Positions 1,192 to 30,654 of a stretch of DNA of 32,469 nt are shown piece after piece (the first letter of the stretch is position 1; each line of letters begins with the position of its first letter). The stretch spans positions 1 to 32,469 of the forward strand of contig NZ_JAHYSG010000131.1 of assembly GCF_022095675.1 (NCBI RefSeq), given 5' to 3'. A program made the translations under genes and the position numbers. Source of the stretch: Dactylosporangium sp. AC04546. GTDB lineage: Bacteria; Actinomycetota; Actinomycetes; Mycobacteriales; Micromonosporaceae. The notes under the pieces were generated by a model, which ran no database searches, had not been told where the DNA came from, and saw only the letters and a program-made list of their open reading frames with translations.

Positions 1192-4149
1192 TCACTCCAC
1201 CACGGCGCCCGGTTCGAGGGCCAGCAGCGAGCGCAGCTCGGTGGTGGACAGCTCGGTGAGCCACTGCTCGCCGGCGCCCACGATGCGGGCGGCGAGGCCG
1301 CGCTTGTCGTGGATCATGGCGGCGATCTTCTCCTCGACCGTGCCCGCCGTGACGAACTTGCGCACCTGGACCGCCCGGCGCTGGCCGATCCGGAAGGCGC
1401 GGTCGGTGGCCTGGTCCTCGACGGCCGGGTTCCACCAGCGGTCGACGTGCACGACGTGGTTGGCGGCGGTGAGTGTCAGGCCGGTGCCGCCCGCCTTCAG
1501 CGACAGCACGAAGATCGGCGGCGCGGCCGGGTCGGCCGACTGGAACCGGGCGACGAGCGCGTCGCGGGACGCCTTCGGCAGGCCGCCGTGCAGGAACGCG
1601 ACCTCGCGGCCGAACCGGGCCGACAGGTGGGCCCGTAGCATGCCGCCGAACTCCGCGTACTGCGTGAAGATCAGCGCGCGCTCACCCGCCGCGAGCACCT
1701 CGTCGAGGATCTCCTCCAGCCGGGCCAGCTTGCCGCTGCGGCCGGCGAGCCGGCTGCCGTCGCGCAGCGCCTGCGCCGGGTGGTTGCACACCTGCTTGAG
1801 CCGGGTCATGGTGGCCAGCACCAGGCCGCGGCGCTCGATGCCCTCGCTGCGCTCGATCCGGGCCAGCATGTCGTCGACGACGGCCTGGTACAGCGACGCC
1901 TGCTCCCGCGTCAGGTTGCACAGGACGTCCATCTCCAGCTTCTCCGGCAGGTCGGCGATGATGCCCTTGTCGGTCTTGACCCTCCGCAGCACGAACGGCT
2001 GGGTGATCCGCCGCAGCCGGGCCGCCGCCTCCTCGTCGCCGAACCGCTCGACCGGCTCGGCGAAGCGCTCCCGGAACTTCGTCGCGGTGCCGAGCAGGCC
2101 CGGGTTGGCGAAGTCCATGATCGACCACAGGTCGGCCAGCCGGTTCTCGACGGGCGTGCCGGTGACCGCGACACGGTGGCGCGCCGGCAGCTGCCGGACC
2201 GCGACCGACTGCTTCGTCGCCGCGTTCTTCACCGCCTGCGCCTCGTCGAGGACGAGCCGGTGCCAGCGCAGCGCCTTGAGCGCGGCGGCGTCGCGGGCGG
2301 CGATCGAGTAGGTGGTGATGACCAGGTCGGACTCCGCGACCGCGGCCCGGAACGCCGCGCCGCGGGCCCGCTCGGCGCCGTGGTGGACGTGCACGCGCAG
2401 CCCGGGCGCGAACTTGGCGGCCTCCCGCTGCCAGTTGCCGACCAGCGACATCGGGCAGACGAGCAGGGTCGGGCCGGGCGCCTTGCCGGCGATGAGGGCG
2501 AGCAGCTGGACGGTCTTGCCCAGACCCATGTCGTCGGCCAGGATGCCGCCGAGGCCGGCGTGCTCGAGGAAGCCGAGCCAGTTGAGCCCGCGCTGCTGGT
2601 ACGGGCGGAGCTCGCCGGCGAACCCGTCGGGCACGTCGAGGTGGCCGATGCGCAGCTCCGTCTCCCCCGACAGCAGATCGCCGAGCCAGCCGTCGGCGGT
2701 GATGCCGGTGACCGGCAGGCCGCCCGGGCCCTCGTCGGCCCCGCCGGCGAGGTGCAGCAGGTCGGCGACGGTGAGCTCGGTCTGTTCGGCCCGCTGGCGC
2801 AGGATCTCCAGGCCGGCCGCAAGCCGCCGTGGGTCGAGCTCGACCCACTGGCCGCGCAGGTTGACCAGCGGTGCCTTGAGGTCGGTGAGGCGGCGCAGCT
2901 CGTCCTGGGTGAGCGGCTCGTCGCCGATCGCCAGGTCCCAGCGGTAGTCGACGACGGCGGCGAGGCCGAGCGCGCTGCCCGTGTCGACGGTGCCCGGGGC
3001 GGTCGCCGTCGACGACCGCGCGGTGAGCTTCAGCCCGAGCCGGGCCGACGCCTTGCGCCACCAGCCGGGCAGCAGCAGGCCGAAGCCGGCGGCGGCCAGC
3101 AGCGGCGCGTACTCGCTGAGCATCCGGTGGGCGCCGGCCGCGTCGAGCTCCAGTTCGGCCGGGCGGGCGGTGCGCAGGGCGTCCTCGATCTCCGGGTACA
3201 GGCGGCTGGCCCGGCCCAGCTCGGCCAGCAGCGTCTCCTGGGGTGCGGGGATGTGCCCCTGGAGGTCGGTCAGCGCGCCGCGCGAGCGCCAGACCCGGTC
3301 GGCGCCGACGACGAGGCTGGGCTCGTCGGCGGCCTGCAGCGCGAACTCCAGCCGCCACGGCGCGGTGTCAAGGTCCTCGGCCGGCTCGACGAGCCGGAAG
3401 CAGGCCCGGACCGCGCCGCCGACCGCGTCACGCTGCCAGGCGGCGAGCTCGGCGCGCAGGACGGCGAGGTCGCCGCGGACCTTCCGGTCCCGGCCGGTGA
3501 GCCGCGCGACCCAGGCACCGGCGGCGCCGGGCACCTGATGACGCGGGGCGGGCAGCGCGTCGCGGGCGGCCGCGTCGACGAACAGGTCGAGCACCTCGGT
3601 CAGCACCCGGGCCCGCGGGCGGTCGCCGTCGAGGGCGGCCTGCGGGAGGGCGAGCGCCAGCTGGCGGGTGTAGGCGGCGTCCCGGCCGGTGAGCACCGGC
3701 AGCCAGCGGGCCTCGTCGGCGACCAGGCCGGGCAGCAGGCGCCCGCGCGCGACGAGGCCGGCGGCGAAGGTGGCGACGGCGGCGAACCAGCGGGTCGTCT
3801 CGCCCAGCACCAGGTCGTCGCCGGCGAGCCCGCCGAGCGAGCGCAGCAGCCCGACCGCGTCGTCGGGCGCGTAGGCGACCGTCTCGACGGCCCAGTCGCG
3901 CAGCTCCAGCCTGCCGGTCGGCGGCTCGGCGGCGACCGACGGCGAGGGCTCGGGCAGGCCGCCGCGGGTCGGCAGCCGCAGGGTGCGCACCGCGGCCACG
4001 CCGGCGTCGCCGTCGAGACTCAGCCCACGCACCGCGAACGGGTGCGGCGCCACGTGGGCCCGCGAGCGGGTCGGCGCCGCCGGGAGCGTCCCGTCCTCGG
4101 CCCACAGGCAGAGCCGGGCGTCCGCCCAGAGCGCATGGACCACGAGCAC
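1192..4149 (-). CDS. SNF2-family DEAD/DEAH-box helicase
   Basis: A 985-aa Swi2/Snf2-type ATPase that should translocate on double-stranded DNA. The first ~480 residues are the family-specific bacterial SNF2 N-terminal region. The SNF2_N domain follows: Walker A DDMGLGKT (K545), motif II DEAQ (635-638), motif III VTGTPVENRL. The C-terminal helicase domain has FTQYAEF, FLHGGLPKASRDALVARFQ and the SLKAGGTGLTLTAANHVVH...WWNPAVEDQATDRAFRIGQ signature. This architecture matches mycobacterial HelZ-type proteins, usually found next to a SWIM protein gene, as here. Function in vivo (nucleoid remodelling, repair or defence) is not shown by the sequence. The start is GTG with no Shine-Dalgarno; TAGGCT lies 6 nt upstream, suggesting leaderless translation. 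Confidence 0.93.
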   Translation of the reverse strand: MLVVHALWADARLCLWAEDGTLPAAPTRSRAHVAPHPFAVRGLSLDGDAGVAAVRTLRLPTRGGLPEPSPSVAAEPPTGRLELRDWAVETVAYAPDDAVGLLRSLGGLAGDDLVLGETTRWFAAVATFAAGLVARGRLLPGLVADEARWLPVLTGRDAAYTRQLALALPQAALDGDRPRARVLTEVLDLFVDAAARDALPAPRHQVPGAAGAWVARLTGRDRKVRGDLAVLRAELAAWQRDAVGGAVRACFRLVEPAEDLDTAPWRLEFALQAADEPSLVVGADRVWRSRGALTDLQGHIPAPQETLLAELGRASRLYPEIEDALRTARPAELELDAAGAHRMLSEYAPLLAAAGFGLLLPGWWRKASARLGLKLTARSSTATAPGTVDTGSALGLAAVVDYRWDLAIGDEPLTQDELRRLTDLKAPLVNLRGQWVELDPRRLAAGLEILRQRAEQTELTVADLLHLAGGADEGPGGLPVTGITADGWLGDLLSGETELRIGHLDVPDGFAGELRPYQQRGLNWLGFLEHAGLGGILADDMGLGKTVQLLALIAGKAPGPTLLVCPMSLVGNWQREAAKFAPGLRVHVHHGAERARGAAFRAAVAESDLVITTYSIAARDAAALKALRWHRLVLDEAQAVKNAATKQSVAVRQLPARHRVAVTGTPVENRLADLWSIMDFANPGLLGTATKFRERFAEPVERFGDEEAAARLRRITQPFVLRRVKTDKGIIADLPEKLEMDVLCNLTREQASLYQAVVDDMLARIERSEGIERRGLVLATMTRLKQVCNHPAQALRDGSRLAGRSGKLARLEEILDEVLAAGERALIFTQYAEFGGMLRAHLSARFGREVAFLHGGLPKASRDALVARFQSADPAAPPIFVLSLKAGGTGLTLTAANHVVHVDRWWNPAVEDQATDRAFRIGQRRAVQVRKFVTAGTVEEKIAAMIHDKRGLAARIVGAGEQWLTELSTTELRSLLALEPGAVVE

Positions 4150-23181: not shown

Positions 23182-24804
23182 TTACGAGTCGAGCAGCGAA
23201 TGGGGGGCCGCGAAGGTGTAGCCCATGGACTGAAGGCCCTCGATCAGGGTCGGCAGGTACTCCAGGGCCAGGAACGGGTGGTAGAAGAACGCCGCCACGT
23301 TGTCCCGGACCACCAACTGGCGCCTGGCCGACGCCAGCAGGTCGGCGGGCAGGCGGACCCCGTGTTGGTTAAACCTTTGTGTCGCCACGTTTCCGAGTGT
23401 TTCGGGAAGTACCGGTGTCCCGTATGCGTCCTTTACGACGTATGGGAAGTACTGGCTCACCGAGCGTGCACTCCTCGGCGTACCCGACAAAATTCCCGAG
23501 AAGTACAACACCTGCTCGAAACGGGCGCGAATGCCTGGGGCTGACGATATCGCTCGGTAGTCTGCCGCGCTCGCAGTGTAGTGGGGAAACTCCCAGATAT
23601 CCGGCGGGTCCAGGCCGGCCGCCTTCCATTCCGTGCGAGCCGACTCCAGGCGGGACAGCGCCCACTCCGCCGAGTCGTCCGGGACCGGGCCGTCCAGCAC
23701 CACCGTGCCTGCCGGGTCCACGTGGGCGCGGTAGAACTCGTAGTCCTCGGCGCTCACGCCGTACGGATTCGGGGCGCCCGTGAAGCCGTGGGTATATCCG
23801 TGCATGATCAGGGTGCCGCCGCGGGCCGTCATGTAGCGCAGGGCGGCGACCACTTCCGGGGCCGTCCGCAGGGTCTTGTGGACCGATGCGCCGCCGGAAT
23901 ACACGCCGGATGCGTCGTCGTAAACAGGAAATACCGCTACAGCGAACGGCACCTTACGGGACGACAGATAGTCGGCGATGGCGCGCAGCTGCGCGGGGTC
24001 GGAATGCGGGCCCACGTCCTCGATGCGGACCAGCGCCCGGTGCCGGGGCCGGGTGGACGGGGCGAGCAGGTCGTACAGCAGGTCCGTCAGGGCGAGGTAC
24101 CGATCGTCGAAGCTCACGTACGTGAACGGAACCTCGGCGATGTACGTCAGGCGGGCCACCCGCAGCGCCCATGGGGCCACGCCGCCGCCCGGCGCCACCG
24201 CATCGGCCAGTGTCGTTGCCTCGACGCCCGGGGAGGTGGTCAGGCGCACCATCGCGCCGGCCGCCGGGTTGCGGGTCAGGGAGGTGCCGCGATAGCGGAT
24301 CTCCGCGACCCGGTCGTCGGCGATCGTCGCATTCTGAAATCCGATTCCCCGGTACCGCGAGATCAATTGCCAGATGTTGGCCCCCATCCACAGGACCGGG
24401 GCGCCGGCGGCCACGTCGGCGAGGAACGCCGGCGGCAGGGGTTCGTCGTACGTCGATCCGATATAGATCGTCAACTGGTACTTCCCGGCCGTTCCGGACG
24501 TGTACTTCGTCACGGGCAGCGCCTCCCATGATCCGAAGTGGGAGGCCAGATTCCCAGCTTGGACCGCATACAGCTCGCCCAGGTCTCCGTATTGCCCGGT
24601 TGTGTCATACAGGACGAGCACCCCGCTCGCCGGGTATGCAGGAGAACGGCCCGCCGACGGGCTGGCCGGAGTCGTACCGATTGGAGAGGTTTTGCAGGCG
24701 TTCACCGAGACGACCACGAGCACCAGCACGGCGATCACGGCAAGAAGCCCGTTCGGGCGACCGGTCGTCACAGCGAGTATTCGTCGGACTGCGGCTCGAT
24801 GCAT
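23182..24804 (-). CDS. Membrane-anchored DUF2334 polysaccharide deacetylase-like protein
   Basis: A 540-aa protein. One N-terminal hydrophobic segment (~residues 19-36, LLAVIAVLVLVVVSVNAC) acts as anchor, possibly lipidated at Cys37 though the lipobox is weak. The first half (VLVLYDTTGQYGDLGELYAVQAGNLASHFG...) resembles a ThuA/glutamine-amidotransferase-like fold. The second half is DUF2334, a NodB-related (beta/alpha)7 domain, with RIEDVGPHSDP (Asp263), MHGYTHG (His335, His339) and WEFPHYTAS, the usual metal and catalytic positions. It probably deacetylates or otherwise processes an extracellular polysaccharide; the substrate is unknown. ATG 24804 has GGAGAG at 6 nt. Codon choice is less GC-biased than in neighbours, notably in the C-terminal 100 codons. 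Confidence 0.83.
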   Translation of the reverse strand: MHRAAVRRILAVTTGRPNGLLAVIAVLVLVVVSVNACKTSPIGTTPASPSAGRSPAYPASGVLVLYDTTGQYGDLGELYAVQAGNLASHFGSWEALPVTKYTSGTAGKYQLTIYIGSTYDEPLPPAFLADVAAGAPVLWMGANIWQLISRYRGIGFQNATIADDRVAEIRYRGTSLTRNPAAGAMVRLTTSPGVEATTLADAVAPGGGVAPWALRVARLTYIAEVPFTYVSFDDRYLALTDLLYDLLAPSTRPRHRALVRIEDVGPHSDPAQLRAIADYLSSRKVPFAVAVFPVYDDASGVYSGGASVHKTLRTAPEVVAALRYMTARGGTLIMHGYTHGFTGAPNPYGVSAEDYEFYRAHVDPAGTVVLDGPVPDDSAEWALSRLESARTEWKAAGLDPPDIWEFPHYTASAADYRAISSAPGIRARFEQVLYFSGILSGTPRSARSVSQYFPYVVKDAYGTPVLPETLGNVATQRFNQHGVRLPADLLASARRQLVVRDNVAAFFYHPFLALEYLPTLIEGLQSMGYTFAAPHSLLDS

Positions 24805-24903
24805 GCACAACTCTCCGGAGAACTCATCGCCAACGCTATCAAAACGGACGGAATTGGTGGCCTGGTCGGGCATATTCGGCGGGTCGTCCGACAAACGGGA
24901 TGG

Positions 24904-29059: not shown

Positions 29060-29254
29060 GCACATCCGACGAACGGCGACTGTCGAAATCGACCGCGCAG
29101 GATCGTCGTCTCCACGAACCCGATCTTCTTGGAGATGATGATGATGTACCTCCCGATGCACGCGGCAACGGAACCGTCCGACCGGGAGCGGCGCGAGACG
29201 GACCGCCGGATGGGCGAACTCGCCCGCGGTGCCCGGCGGTGGTGGAACTGGCTG
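29060..29254. other. Spacer between YCII gene and tRNA array
   Basis: A plus-strand open frame starting at four consecutive ATG codons (29133-29144) behind GGAG runs into the antisense of the Ser tRNA. It is probably spurious. A GGGCGA/TCGCCC inverted repeat at 29212-29225 is the only structure downstream of the tRNA array; it has no U-run. Confidence 0.4.
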
Positions 29255-29340
29255 CGGGGAGGGTGGGAGTCGAACCCACACGGGCGTGAACCCAACGCCG
29301 TTTTCGAGACGGGTGCCGGCACCTATCGGCTGGCCTCCCC
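29255..29340 (-). tRNA. tRNA-Ser(CGA), atypical
   Basis: An 86-nt class II tRNA. Acceptor stem of 7 bp (GGGGAGG/CCTCCCC) with discriminator G73; D-stem GCC/GGC; anticodon CGA in loop CTCGAAA; 17-nt variable arm; T-stem GTGGG/CCCAC with TTCGACT loop. Oddities: the acceptor-D linker is three nucleotides (CCA) and lacks the conserved U8; the 27-43 pair is a C-C mismatch. CCA is not encoded. It reads the serine codon UCG if functional. Confidence 0.8.
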
Positions 29341-29350
29341 CGGTCCTGCG

Positions 29351-29424
29351 CACCCTTGGAAGGATTCGAACCTCCGGCCTCCTCGTTCGTAGCGAGGCGC
29401 TCTACTCCGCTGAGCTACAAGGGC
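29351..29424 (-). tRNA. tRNA-Arg(ACG)
   Basis: A 74-nt class I tRNA with anticodon ACG in loop CTACGAA and a perfect 5-bp anticodon stem CCTCG/CGAGG. A20 in the D-loop and C35 are the arginine identity elements. The D-stem is GCTC/GAGC. The acceptor begins with a G1-U72 wobble (GCCCTTG/CAAGGGT); discriminator G. CCA is not encoded. Confidence 0.88.
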
Positions 29425-29454
29425 ATGGTGGTGCTGTGCGTGCGCTTCGTCGCG

Positions 29455-29539
29455 CGGAAAGTGAGGGGATCGAACCCCCGCGGGGTCTCCCCCGTCGACG
29501 GCTTAGCAAGCCGCAGCCTTACCTCTCGGCCAACTCTCC
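29455..29539 (-). tRNA. tRNA-Ser(GCT)
   Basis: An 85-nt class II tRNA. Acceptor GGAGAGT/ACTTTCC, discriminator G, U8 present, D-stem GCC/GGC, anticodon GCT in loop TTGCTAA, variable arm with a 5-bp stem CGGGG/CCCCG, T-loop TTCGATC. Structurally the soundest member of the array. CCA is not encoded. Confidence 0.88.
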
Positions 29540-29556
29540 AGTGGTGCCGTGGGACG

Positions 29557-29630
29557 TACCCGGAAGAGGATTCGAACCTCCACTGTCCTGGCCCTGAACC
29601 AGGTGCCTCCTGCCGTTGGGCTATCCGGGC
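29557..29630 (-). tRNA. Class I tRNA with CAG anticodon (Leu codon CUG), unusual
   Basis: A 74-nt tRNA with perfect anticodon stem CCTGG/CCAGG and loop TTCAGGG, so the anticodon is CAG (leucine CUG in the standard code). The variable loop is only 5 nt (ACAGT), unlike normal bacterial tRNA-Leu, which has a long arm. Acceptor GCCCGGA/TCCGGGT with G1-U72 wobble; discriminator A73, as leucine tRNAs have. The D-arm (GCCC...AGGC) has an enlarged loop. T-stem GGAGG/CCTCT. No encoded CCA. Its body resembles the CAA tRNA at 30177-30250. The amino acid it carries is uncertain. Confidence 0.8.
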
Positions 29631-29633
29631 GTG

Positions 29634-29672
29634 CGGGGCTCGGCGGGCGGTAGCAGGACCCGCCGAGCCCCG
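29634..29672 (-). terminator. 14-bp hairpin between HNH gene and tRNA(CAG)
   Basis: A perfect stem 29634-29647 with 29659-29672 and an 11-nt loop. It starts 2 nt after the HNH stop codon and ends 3 nt before the tRNA 5' end. No U-run follows. It may terminate HNH transcription or serve as a processing structure for a joint transcript. Confidence 0.6.
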
Positions 29673-29674
29673 AT

Positions 29675-30118
29675 TCAACGCTGGGCGAGCGAGGCCCACG
29701 TCGGAGTCGACGGCTGGACCCGCAGCACCATGCCCGCTTCGACGGGGGTGCGGTCGCCCTTGCGCTGGTTGCAGGCCGTGCAGGCCGCAACCGTGTTCTT
29801 CCAGGTGTTCCGCCCGCCCCGCGAGCGGGGCAGGATGTGGTCGATGGTCGTGGCCTCGCGGCCGCAGTAGCCGCAACGGTGGCCGTCGCGGGCGTGAACG
29901 CCCGCACGCGACCAGGCCGGGCCGGCGCCGAAGCGCCAACGCGTCACCACGAAGCTGACGAGCCGCACCACCCGCGGGAGCGGGTAGACCCCGATCAACC
30001 GGTCCGGCTCCGCCTCGTGCACGACGGCCACCTCACGCAGCAGCATGCGGATGGCGTGGCGGAGTGAGACCCGGTGCAGGGGTCCGAGGTCGGCGTTGAG
30101 CACGAGAACCGCGGTCAC
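29675..30118 (-). CDS. HNH endonuclease inside a tRNA array
   Basis: A 147-aa protein of the actinobacterial VLVLNA-type HNH family (HNH_5-like). The N-terminal ~65 residues are MTAVLVLNADLGPLHRVSLRHAIRML...RVVRLVSFVVTRWRF. The nuclease finger has zinc-binding C82-x2-C85 and C113-x2-C116, catalytic D93-H94 (ATTIDHILPRSRGG), and the N-T-V-A-A-C-x-x-C-N-x-x-K-G-D-R-T-P end. It should nick or cut DNA; the target is unknown. GTG 30118 has GGGAGGAGG 4 nt upstream, so translation is efficient. It lies between the CAA and CAG tRNAs on the same strand, as homing-type HNH genes do in phage tRNA clusters. However, close relatives of this family are also ordinary chromosomal genes. Confidence 0.9.
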   Translation of the reverse strand: MTAVLVLNADLGPLHRVSLRHAIRMLLREVAVVHEAEPDRLIGVYPLPRVVRLVSFVVTRWRFGAGPAWSRAGVHARDGHRCGYCGREATTIDHILPRSRGGRNTWKNTVAACTACNQRKGDRTPVEAGMVLRVQPSTPTWASLAQR

Positions 30119-30136
30119 CGGGCCTCCTCCCTTCCT

Positions 30137-30165
30137 GTCGTACCGAGTGCCAGGTGTTGCACCAA
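30137..30165 (-). promoter_or_regulatory. Promoter candidate for HNH gene, TTGGTG-N17-TACGAC
   Basis: -35 at 30165-30160 and -10 at 30142-30137 on the minus strand, 17-bp spacer, about 18 nt before the GTG. It lies just downstream of the CAA tRNA. Confidence 0.35.
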
Positions 30166-30176
30166 ACGATCTTGCG

Positions 30177-30250
30177 TACCGTGGGCGGGCCTCGAACCCG
30201 CACTGACCCCGCTTTGAACGGGGCGCCTCTGCCGATTGGGCTACCGCGGC
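30177..30250 (-). tRNA. Class I tRNA with CAA anticodon (Leu codon UUG), unusual
   Basis: A 74-nt tRNA with perfect anticodon stem CCCCG/CGGGG and loop TTCAAAG, anticodon CAA (leucine UUG). It has a 5-nt variable loop (TCAGT) instead of a class II arm, G1-U72 wobble, a C5-A68 mismatch in the acceptor stem, and discriminator A73. T-arm GCGGG/CCCGC is perfect with loop TTCGAGG. No encoded CCA. It shares D-arm, variable loop and end bases with the CAG tRNA, so the two are probably paralogues. Confidence 0.78.
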
Positions 30251-30286
30251 ATGTATCGAATGGAATTGTCAAAGAACAATGGAATG
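30251..30286 (-). other. AT-rich spacer between CAA and Trp tRNAs
   Basis: Strikingly AT-rich for this genome. It contains a 5-bp inverted repeat ATTGT/ACAAT (30265-30269 with 30276-30280) and, on the minus strand, TTGACA, which is too close to the tRNA to be a normal -35. It may be a foreign remnant or a processing spacer. Confidence 0.35.
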
Positions 30287-30359
30287 CACGGGCGGCAGGA
30301 ATCGAACCCGCAACCGTCGGATTTGGAGGCCGGTGCTCTACCAGTTGAGCTACACCCGT
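30287..30359 (-). tRNA. tRNA-Trp(CCA)-like with defective anticodon stem
   Basis: A 73-nt tRNA. Acceptor ACGGGTG/CGCCCGT, G73 (as in tRNA-Trp), D-stem GCTC/GAGC, T-stem GCGGG/CCTGC, anticodon CCA in loop CTCCAAA. The anticodon stem CCGGC/TCCGA pairs only at its three middle positions; 31-39 (C-T) and 27-43 (C-A) are mismatched, where normal tRNA-Trp has CCGGT/ACCGG. It may be a degenerate gene or a tRNA with altered decoding. No encoded CCA. Confidence 0.75.
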
Positions 30360-30377
30360 ATGTGTTCATGTCGCACG

Positions 30378-30409
30378 AAAAAGCCGCCCGATGCTTCACC
30401 GGGCGGCTT
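30378..30409 (-). terminator. Intrinsic terminator of the small gene
   Basis: A 10-bp perfect stem (30381-30390 with 30400-30409) and 9-nt loop, followed on the minus strand by a U-run at 30382-30378. It ends the small-gene transcript 18 nt before the Trp-type tRNA, so readthrough or a hidden promoter must supply the tRNAs. Confidence 0.85.
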
Positions 30410-30424
30410 CGAGGCAGGCTGGAC

Positions 30425-30574
30425 CTAGCCTCGCCACCGTCCGGGGCGCAGCGACAACTCGCCGGTCAGACCGCTGACCAGCGCGAATCCGGGACGTGAC
30501 CGCCAACTGCGGGACAGGGCGGCTCGACCGAGCGGCGCGCTCGCCGTCAGCCATAGCTTCTTGTGCCCGTTCAT
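30425..30574 (-). CDS. Small basic protein, 49 aa, hypothetical
   Basis: A 49-codon frame beginning MNGHKKLWLTASAPLGRAALSRSW and ending TGELSLRPGRWRG. It is basic and has no Cys or long hydrophobic stretch. I do not recognise it. Support for a real gene: ATG 30574 has AGGAAGGGA at 7 nt, a well-spaced promoter (30626-30654) lies upstream, and an intrinsic terminator follows 15 nt after the stop. It is a complete unit beside the tRNA array. It might instead be a small RNA with chance coding capacity. Confidence 0.55.
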   Translation of the reverse strand: MNGHKKLWLTASAPLGRAALSRSWRSRPGFALVSGLTGELSLRPGRWRG

Positions 30575-30625
30575 CGGTGGTCCCTTCCTCTGCGTATCCT
30601 CGTCTGCGTGCCGTTGACGTATTCA

Positions 30626-30654
30626 AAGATACGACCCGGCCGGACGCGCGGCAA
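30626..30654 (-). promoter_or_regulatory. Promoter of the small gene, TTGCCG-N17-TATCTT
   Basis: Minus strand -35 TTGCCG (30654-30649), 17-bp spacer, -10 TATCTT (30631-30626), about 50 nt before the ATG at 30574. The surrounding sequence is AT-rich relative to the window. Confidence 0.6.

Follow-up and report, generated by a model that had tools for sequence, protein, structure and literature searches.

A piece of a dispersed accessory tRNA set in Dactylosporangium whose leader peptide may inventory the downstream tRNAs

Why does a Dactylosporangium genome carry a tight cluster of tRNA genes around an endonuclease gene, and how might such a cluster be controlled? The locus in question lies in a stretch of 32,469 nt (the window), which is contig C131 (NZ_JAHYSG010000131.1) of the 13.0-Mb, 348-contig genome of Dactylosporangium sp. 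AC04546 (Micromonosporaceae). We propose, with a probability of about 0.78, that it is part of a backup tRNA set scattered over the genome and is controlled by a ribosome-mediated attenuator, whose leader peptide inventories the tRNAs encoded downstream.

ARAGORN recovers six tRNA genes, all on the minus strand (29254-30359), and the open reading frame (ORF) in their midst (29675-30118, minus strand) encodes an HNH nuclease (Pfam HNH_5, 5.4e-15; HNH, 1.6e-13), both in agreement with an earlier sequence-only reading of this DNA. The Rfam tRNA gathering score was passed by five of the six genes in the search of the window and by all six in the search of their own genome (Ser-CGA with 33.5 bits). 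Absent from the earlier reading is a leader ORF with a terminator, at 30374-30574 (minus strand), upstream of the first tRNA gene. In the direction of transcription the locus is composed as follows:

30649..30654, minus strand: -35-like box TTGCCG, 17-nt spacer to the -10-like box (read from the sequence)
30626..30631, minus strand: -10-like box TATCTT (read from the sequence)
30581..30591, minus strand: purine-rich ribosome-binding region AGAGGAAGGGA before the leader ATG (read from the sequence)
30425..30574, minus strand: leader ORF of 49 codons, MNGHKKLWLTASAPLGRAALSRSWRSRPGFALVSGLTGELSLRPGRWRG (module rule, match statistics)
30399..30444, minus strand: predicted antiterminator formed between the last part of the leader ORF and the terminator's 5' arm (RNAfold)
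30382..30408, minus strand: intrinsic terminator hairpin of 12 bp (loop AAG) and, at 30374-30381, a U-rich tail (module rule, covariance model R1)
30286..30359, minus strand: tRNA-Trp (CCA) (ARAGORN, Rfam)
30176..30250, minus strand: tRNA-Leu (CAA), class I, A73, G1-U72 (ARAGORN with drawing, Rfam)
29675..30118, minus strand: HNH endonuclease gene, 147 aa, on the strand of the tRNAs (Pfam)
29556..29630, minus strand: tRNA-Leu (CAG), class I, A73, G1-U72 (ARAGORN with drawing, Rfam)
29454..29539, minus strand: tRNA-Ser (GCT) (ARAGORN, Rfam)
29350..29424, minus strand: tRNA-Arg (ACG), G1-U72 (ARAGORN with drawing, Rfam)
29254..29340, minus strand: tRNA-Ser (CGA) (ARAGORN; Rfam, own-genome search)

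The genome contains 82 tRNA matches above the Rfam threshold, and all six anticodons of the window have another gene outside it. The window tRNAs are accessory because each anticodon is served elsewhere; this rules out that they are simply the housekeeping tRNAs, the outcome that the sequence-only reading had named as its refutation, and together with the HNH domain it bears out the proposed accessory array with an embedded endonuclease. For the six tRNA bodies, identity is 58-81% to the closest gene with the same anticodon among the non-array genes of this genome, 76-88% to the closest such gene in larger arrays of other genera and 78-100% to the orthologues that were detected at this locus within the genus. 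Judged by these comparisons, the window tRNAs are accessory and old. All seven Dactylosporangium genomes searched contain this locus together with the end of the same upstream ORF; some copies lack individual tRNAs. Further accessory clusters are found in the same genome on contigs C71 (11 tRNAs detected), C53 (11) and C69 (3).

At each of these pieces a promoter-like site is followed by a short ORF and a terminator rich in G+C; the ORF often closes with GRWRG-stop or a similar sequence. Before many other leaders, boxes resembling those of the window (TTGCC-like and TA(T/C)C-like) can be read as well. At L177 and L184, two array loci of two Dactylosporangium genomes, the module lies further upstream of the tRNAs; here, a different ORF, HNH-like by eye, is located between the attenuator and the first detected tRNA. 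After the module had been spotted by eye in several leaders, we set a uniform rule that requires a hairpin followed by a T-rich tail, the stop codon of an ORF 8-36 nt ahead of the hairpin and a start assigned by a ribosome-binding match, and that ignores the composition of the peptide. The rule finds a leader at 23/23 array loci of the seven Dactylosporangium genomes and at 16/16 given array loci of other Micromonosporaceae (15 distinct ones, L104 being a repeat of L082). No leader is detected by the rule at seven further tRNA groups, namely L149, L157 (28 tRNAs in a metagenome-assembled genome of Acidobacteria), L174 and, in Dactylosporangium, L180, L185, L188 and L189. Of the features of a ribosome-mediated attenuator, the sequence contains a short leader ORF with a ribosome-binding site, cognate codons within it and an intrinsic terminator before the genes.

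To compare leaders with arrays, Met1 and the last five residues, which lie within the predicted antiterminator, were removed in the coverage and codon tests, and Met was excluded from all amino-acid coverage tests. Near-identical leaders of the discovery set were represented by one member each. In the resulting 16 Dactylosporangium leader groups, every amino acid served by an array was found in its own leader (93/93), in comparison to a mean of 62.4 (standard deviation 4.7, maximum 82 of 93) when leaders were swapped in 20,000 permutations. The rare residues are the most telling: Cys and Tyr each occur in 4/4 leaders whose array has the respective tRNA and in 0/12 whose array lacks it, Ile in 4/4 versus 1/12 and Asp in 5/5 versus 2/11. 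Ala, Arg, Pro and Thr are present in most leaders regardless of array content. The array L074, for instance, carries Pro, Thr, Ile, Arg, Val and His tRNAs and has the leader MITTRRVTVVPTPRPHTIPVIRPTGRWRG, and L187 with Asp and Ile tRNAs has the leader MRIRTATAIDPVSDRPRWRG. The window leader holds Leu, Ser, Arg and Trp, all four amino acids of its array, and includes the run TTG TCG CTG CGC, whose predicted readers are the Leu-CAA, Ser-CGA, Leu-CAG and Arg-ACG tRNAs encoded downstream.

The match extends to the larger arrays of other genera. For 15 of these, 210/221 amino acids were found in the own leader versus 196.0 for swapped leaders, a value not reached in 20,000 permutations, and the Mantel-Haenszel odds ratio was 15.8 (L115 left out, L087 included). 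Counted over whole leaders, 14 large arrays have 18.0 distinct amino acids per leader versus 14.6 in coding windows of the same length, and the leaders of L080, L100 and L114 contain all 20 (that of L114 is longer, with 62 residues).

A further set of loci was obtained with R1, a covariance model of 31 leader tails and terminators. R1 matches the window at 30374-30445 (E 1.2e-8, the window sequence being among the 31 used to build it) and yields 23 matches in the seven Dactylosporangium genomes (4, 4, 3, 2, 2, 4 and 4), which equals the array loci found. D. roseum accounts for two of these matches. At E 0.01 it matches 146/200 Micromonosporaceae genomes, and among 296 genomes of the class at E 0.001 it was found in three Micromonosporaceae, out of a number of family members in the draw that is not stated, and in one weak outsider, G330, with no ARAGORN tRNA in its 3-kb locus. 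The hold-out consisted of 59 R1 matches among about 150 listed, which were picked for long contigs, downstream room and genomes taken as unused; L287, a region without a chosen match, was left out. While 55 of the 59 precede two or more tRNAs, two precede one and two none, and the latter four were excluded from the match test. These four (L242, L278, L269 and L272), with no ARAGORN tRNA in two cases and a lone tRNA-Met several hundred bases off in the other two, are either decayed arrays or modules with other targets.

In the 55 hold-out arrays, 506/547 amino acids were covered by the own leader versus 430.9 after swapping (p 1e-4, Mantel-Haenszel odds ratio 10.4). This includes four leaders (L232, L245, L273 and L276) that look truncated, an internal Met apparently having been taken as the start. 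With one representative per leader cluster, coverage was 288/312 versus 237.1, and for the small arrays it was 102/107 versus 79.3 (odds ratio 35.9). Three hold-out leaders (L231, L236 and L238) are identical to discovery leaders; removing them left 52 arrays with 458/498 versus 389.4 (p 1e-4, odds ratio 9.5). For the 41 arrays whose leaders are unlike any discovery leader, coverage was 329/362 versus 275.2.

The signal belongs to the reading frame of the leader. In the true frame, z-scores were 6.5 for Dactylosporangium, 4.6 for the larger arrays and 8.6 for the hold-out; in Dactylosporangium the other frames gave -1.8 and -0.4, and those of the larger arrays ranged from -0.4 to 0.9. This frame-specific match argues for translation of the leader. 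It also reaches down to the choice among synonymous codons: 1275/1661 codons of served amino acids are read by the own array versus 1208.2 when shuffled between arrays (p 0.0003; discovery subset p 0.0003, hold-out p 0.0023), and a readable codon is present in the leader for 104/108 tRNAs versus 98.7 with resampled synonyms (p 0.011). The synonymous-codon match therefore favours sensing of tRNA species over sensing of amino acids as such. Module, link to the arrays and match at the level of amino acid, frame and synonymous codon are all computed results.

The four pieces in the genome of strain AC04546 complement each other. Together they hold 31 detected genes with 29 distinct isoacceptors for 19 amino acids (all but Phe), versus 23.5 distinct isoacceptors expected from independent sampling out of a pool of 40 species, a pool size of our choosing (p 0.0008). 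In G005, four pieces cover all 20 amino acids, and in G002, G003 and G004 the complementarity was not significant (p 0.05, 0.16 and 0.15). Throughout Dactylosporangium the arrays are split over two to four loci, which are chromosomal in complete genomes. The dispersal is not an assembly artefact, because the pieces are also spread over the complete chromosome of D. vinaceum (2.64, 3.49, 4.73 and 8.18 Mb). In related genera, arrays reach 36 tRNAs, and the complete genome G016 of another genus has a single array of 35 tRNAs around an HNH gene that is 78% identical. Among pieces with four or more comparable genes, the G016 order is mostly preserved (Kendall tau 0.55-1.0, one 0.2), and they are interleaved along the length of that array. 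This interleaving is therefore better explained by duplication of arrays and reciprocal loss, and simple breakage of one array is disfavoured. The gene order suggests that the pieces arose by array duplication followed by complementary loss. All array tRNA lists were taken from ARAGORN, and some genes that Rfam finds, for example a Ser gene at the end of L073, are missing from them.

How could such a leader control its array? In the leaders, the last stretch of the ORF and the 5' arm of the terminator have complementary sequences. Over 38 leaders, 271 arm bases are paired with the ORF end versus 184 with shuffled ORF ends, and the RNA from the ORF end to the terminator arm folds more stably than dinucleotide shuffles (mean z -1.97, 27/30 below 0). 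For the window, the transcript before the 3' arm of the terminator folds with -32.2 kcal/mol in RNAfold, and a slightly shorter segment has a z of -3.3. In equilibrium folding, the terminator forms with a mean probability of 0.92 when a ribosome occupies the stop codon, 0.62 without a ribosome and 0.61 with a ribosome stalled in the middle of the ORF. The order of synthesis would favour the antiterminator over these equilibrium values. Taken together, the folding models make an attenuator switch plausible, with antitermination as a predicted step.

We infer ribosome stalling, antitermination, expression of the array and depletion of tRNAs, not of amino acids, as the trigger, and the proposed cycle would run as follows. 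RNA polymerase would start at the promoter and a ribosome would translate the leader. As long as all listed tRNAs are available, the ribosome would reach the stop codon and mask the ORF end, so that the terminator forms and the array stays off. If a listed tRNA is depleted, for example because an anticodon nuclease or a toxin has cleaved it, the ribosome would stall within the leader, the ORF end would pair with the 5' arm of the terminator and the polymerase would enter the tRNA genes (and the HNH gene). The new tRNAs would then restore translation of the leader and switch the array off again. Loss of tRNA is the trigger that the array could cure, because it supplies tRNAs and not amino acids; by analogy, this would be in line with the proposal, in the available text of PMC10264068, that phage tRNAs act against tRNA nucleases.

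Several observations weigh against this reading. On the side of folding, the arm pairing of the window alone is no better than in shuffles (p 0.47), and pairing between arm and ORF end reaches p <0.05 singly in only 4/38 leaders. Relative to a ribosome at the stop codon, a stall in the middle of the ORF reduces the probability of the terminator by more than 0.05 in only 15/30 leaders, and the equilibrium value for the window terminator is 0.98 without a ribosome and falls to 0.40 only with a stalled one. Covariation for the antiterminator was not found, as RNAalifold on a MAFFT alignment gives the terminator helix only, and the hairpin of C69 is followed by a poor U tract. On the side of the match, many leader residues have no corresponding tRNA; in the window leader, 49% of the trimmed residues are listed ones, which places it fourth of the 16 leaders. 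Removal of 10 terminal residues instead of five cuts the coverage to 88/93 and 179/221. The reverse-complement frame in Dactylosporangium carries a weak signal (z 2.6, p 0.01), and in the hold-out the frames +1 and +2 have z-scores of 1.7 and 1.9 (1.2 to 1.9 over all hold-out frames but the true one). In addition, 40/498 hold-out amino acids are absent from the leader, with Lys and Trp among those most often missing; these misses are either real or result from truncated starts and imperfect tRNA lists. Finally, the module rule also fires at 2/36 non-array tRNA units of this genome, and no such leader was found within 1 kb upstream of three mycobacterial plasmid arrays.

How do other explanations compare with the attenuator proposal? 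The leader might respond to any slowdown of ribosomes, caused by antibiotics or starvation, with the match between residues and tRNAs as a by-product. A silent tRNA operon of Anabaena that is induced by translation inhibitors via the repressor TrcR (PMC10272220, in its available part) lends this idea some appeal, as do the leaders of large arrays, which hold most amino acids anyway. We nevertheless consider it unlikely, since the leaders of small pieces match their own few tRNAs, as seen for the small hold-out arrays, and the match includes synonymous codons, which a general sensor does not need. It is improbable that the extra tRNAs mainly improve codon supply in certain growth phases or for foreign genes, with a leader that only tunes dosage. 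The window isoacceptors indeed duplicate existing ones, as in the mycobacterial arrays described in the available text of PMC5966550 and PMC12803027; however, all six anticodons already have other genes, and dosage control requires no leader that names the amino acids of its own array.

Very improbable, in our view, is a functionless, decaying remnant of a mobile phage or plasmid array with a homing HNH endonuclease. The HNH relatives in phage and plasmid arrays, the fragmentation, the mild structural defects and the tRNAs missing from some Dactylosporangium copies would fit decay, in contrast to the presence of the locus in 7/7 genomes of the genus with tRNAs that are 78-100% identical, the complementary pieces and the matched leaders. 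The statement in the sequence-only reading that phage genes are lacking nearby was confirmed for the 20 window ORFs scanned (of 166 listed), which contain no phage, integrase or replication domain, and a prophage or plasmid remnant was rejected on this basis. Nor was a variable site, an integrase or a phage gene found that would indicate recent mobility, as judged from these 20 ORFs and from the upstream ORF end shared by seven genomes. The choice offered there between a domesticated remnant and a small autonomous element finds no support in a locus that is conserved in the genus, accompanied by three further pieces and provided with a matched leader at each of them. That short ORFs and terminators, common in DNA of high G+C content, were picked until they fitted is hardly credible. 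The module was first noticed by eye and the leaders are short, yet the ORF rule is blind to composition and fires at only 23/1500 random windows besides the two non-array units mentioned above. The ORFs from these control firings cover a mean of 55.9 and a maximum of 79 of the 93 amino acids, and other frames match far less. Above all, the chance explanation is contradicted by the hold-out test.

The HNH gene of the array is present in all seven Dactylosporangium genomes. Relatives with 45-47% identity are encoded within the tRNA arrays of Microbacterium phage Cece and three mycobacterial plasmids, which substantiates the earlier remark that arrays with such nucleases occur in phages and plasmids; the mycobacterial plasmid matches listed span 44-47% identity. 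The genome of strain AC04546 has two HNH matches, the window copy and a distant paralogue on C57, and the other three pieces have no copy. This second HNH (G000:C57:51404-51823), about 48% identical to the array HNH, was detected in most genomes searched and, from its distribution, looks like a conserved chromosomal paralogue. No ARAGORN tRNA was found near several HNH loci of related genera (L052, L055, L057, L058, L061, L063 and six wider regions). In phages, the homing endonuclease SegB amplifies a tRNA-Tyr gene (PMC13096335, available text), and by analogy a role of the array HNH in moving or amplifying segments is possible.

The remaining properties of the window tRNAs are less distinctive than the sequence-only reading had assumed. 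None of the six encodes CCA, as stated there, but this does not set them apart, because few tRNA genes of the genome do (8/47 non-array and 3/31 array genes). The G1-U72 start is shared by three and not two of them (Arg-ACG, Leu-CAG and Leu-CAA). Structural defects are present in the ARAGORN drawings but mild: one mismatch in the acceptor stem of Leu-CAA, two in the anticodon stem of Trp and mismatches in the uppermost part of the Ser-CGA anticodon stem. Both Leu tRNAs are short (class I) and end with A73. Since tRNA-Leu genes outside arrays can be short as well, namely tRNA-Leu (UAG) at L019 502-575 and (CAA) at L042 1083-1157, we did not retain mis-sense or otherwise unusual class I Leu tRNAs as the principal explanation; long-arm Leu tRNAs are encoded on other contigs.

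Other features of the window and of the genomes are reported for completeness. The window encodes an SNF2-family helicase with DUF3670 at 1192-4149 (minus strand; Pfam SNF2-rel_dom, Helicase_C) and a 570-codon ORF with a DUF2334 domain at 23182-24894. A family of near-identical tRNA-like genes has eight members in this genome, scattered or paired, with varied or broken anticodons and no leader module; it also occurs in L180, L188 and L189 of two other Dactylosporangium genomes:

L003 3880-3953 and 13490-14606, L004 8901-9058, L007 703-777, L041 1206-1282 (contigs C11, C98, C4, C21): tRNA-like genes with the GTAGCGCAGAGGTCGTCGC body

A second kind of degenerate tRNA-like cluster, with four genes, the unusual T loop GGTGCGA and no leader module, is located at L185 1827-2137 (contig C47 of G006).

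Arrays of tRNA genes with an embedded HNH gene are known from mycobacteria, plasmids and phages (Morgado and Vicente, 2018, PMC5966550; Yano et al., 2026, PMC12803027), and their biological role is called unknown (PMC12803027); for these and the other cited papers, comparisons refer to the available parts of the text. A tRNA array unit is defined by at least 20 tRNA genes in a region and at least two per kb (PMC5966550). The window locus has the required density, with six genes in 1.1 kb, and stays below the required number, which its larger kin with up to 36 tRNAs exceed. It shares with the mycobacterial, plasmid and phage units the dense tRNAs that are redundant with housekeeping genes and the embedded HNH gene of the same broad family, traits described for array units outside their definition, and its set has a similar near-complete coverage of amino acids. 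In contrast to the mycobacterial units, the Dactylosporangium arrays are chromosomal in complete genomes, genus-wide and split, and they possess a matched leader with terminator, which a search of the 1 kb upstream did not reveal for the three mycobacterial plasmid arrays checked (L093, L197 and L198; 25-28 detected tRNAs with embedded HNH).

Attenuators with cognate leader codons are classical, for example in the trp and his operons (Elf and Ehrenberg, 2005, PMC1183508). Unlike in these, tRNAs are the product here, the leader names a large number of amino acids, as many as 20, instead of containing a run of one residue, and the regulated variable would be the tRNA species. The Anabaena trn operon is likewise a silent accessory tRNA operon that is induced by translation stress, silence and induction being proposed for our arrays, but it is controlled by the DNA-binding repressor TrcR and not by a putative cis-acting leader (PMC10272220). 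Phage tRNAs are proposed to counter tRNA-cleaving defences (PMC10264068), and phage systems thus resemble the arrays in the spare tRNAs that would replace cleaved ones and in the linkage of a homing-type nuclease to tRNA genes (PMC10264068, PMC13096335); here, the tRNAs reside on a bacterial chromosome. Whereas HNH-bearing arrays and cognate-codon attenuators are known, a leader as an inventory of the tRNA genes it controls is something that we did not find described: within the open-licence literature, no paper joining tRNA arrays with leader-peptide attenuation was found.

The leader finding addresses the question of the function and control of accessory tRNA arrays. A leader that names the tRNAs under its control would tell what the system senses, namely the availability of those tRNA species, one by one, and the idea of backup tRNAs becomes directly testable through leader codons and single tRNAs. 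R1 provides a sequence marker for locating such systems, and the leaders suggest ready-made reporters for the depletion of single tRNAs. For the Micromonosporaceae as a family, we think it rather probable that they possess self-inventorying tRNA operons, in which translation of the leader needs the very tRNAs that the operon can replace and in which the leader is rewritten whenever an array is split or loses genes; such operons would constitute a general sensor of tRNA loss that needs no protein of its own and may serve as an immune or toxin-recovery system.

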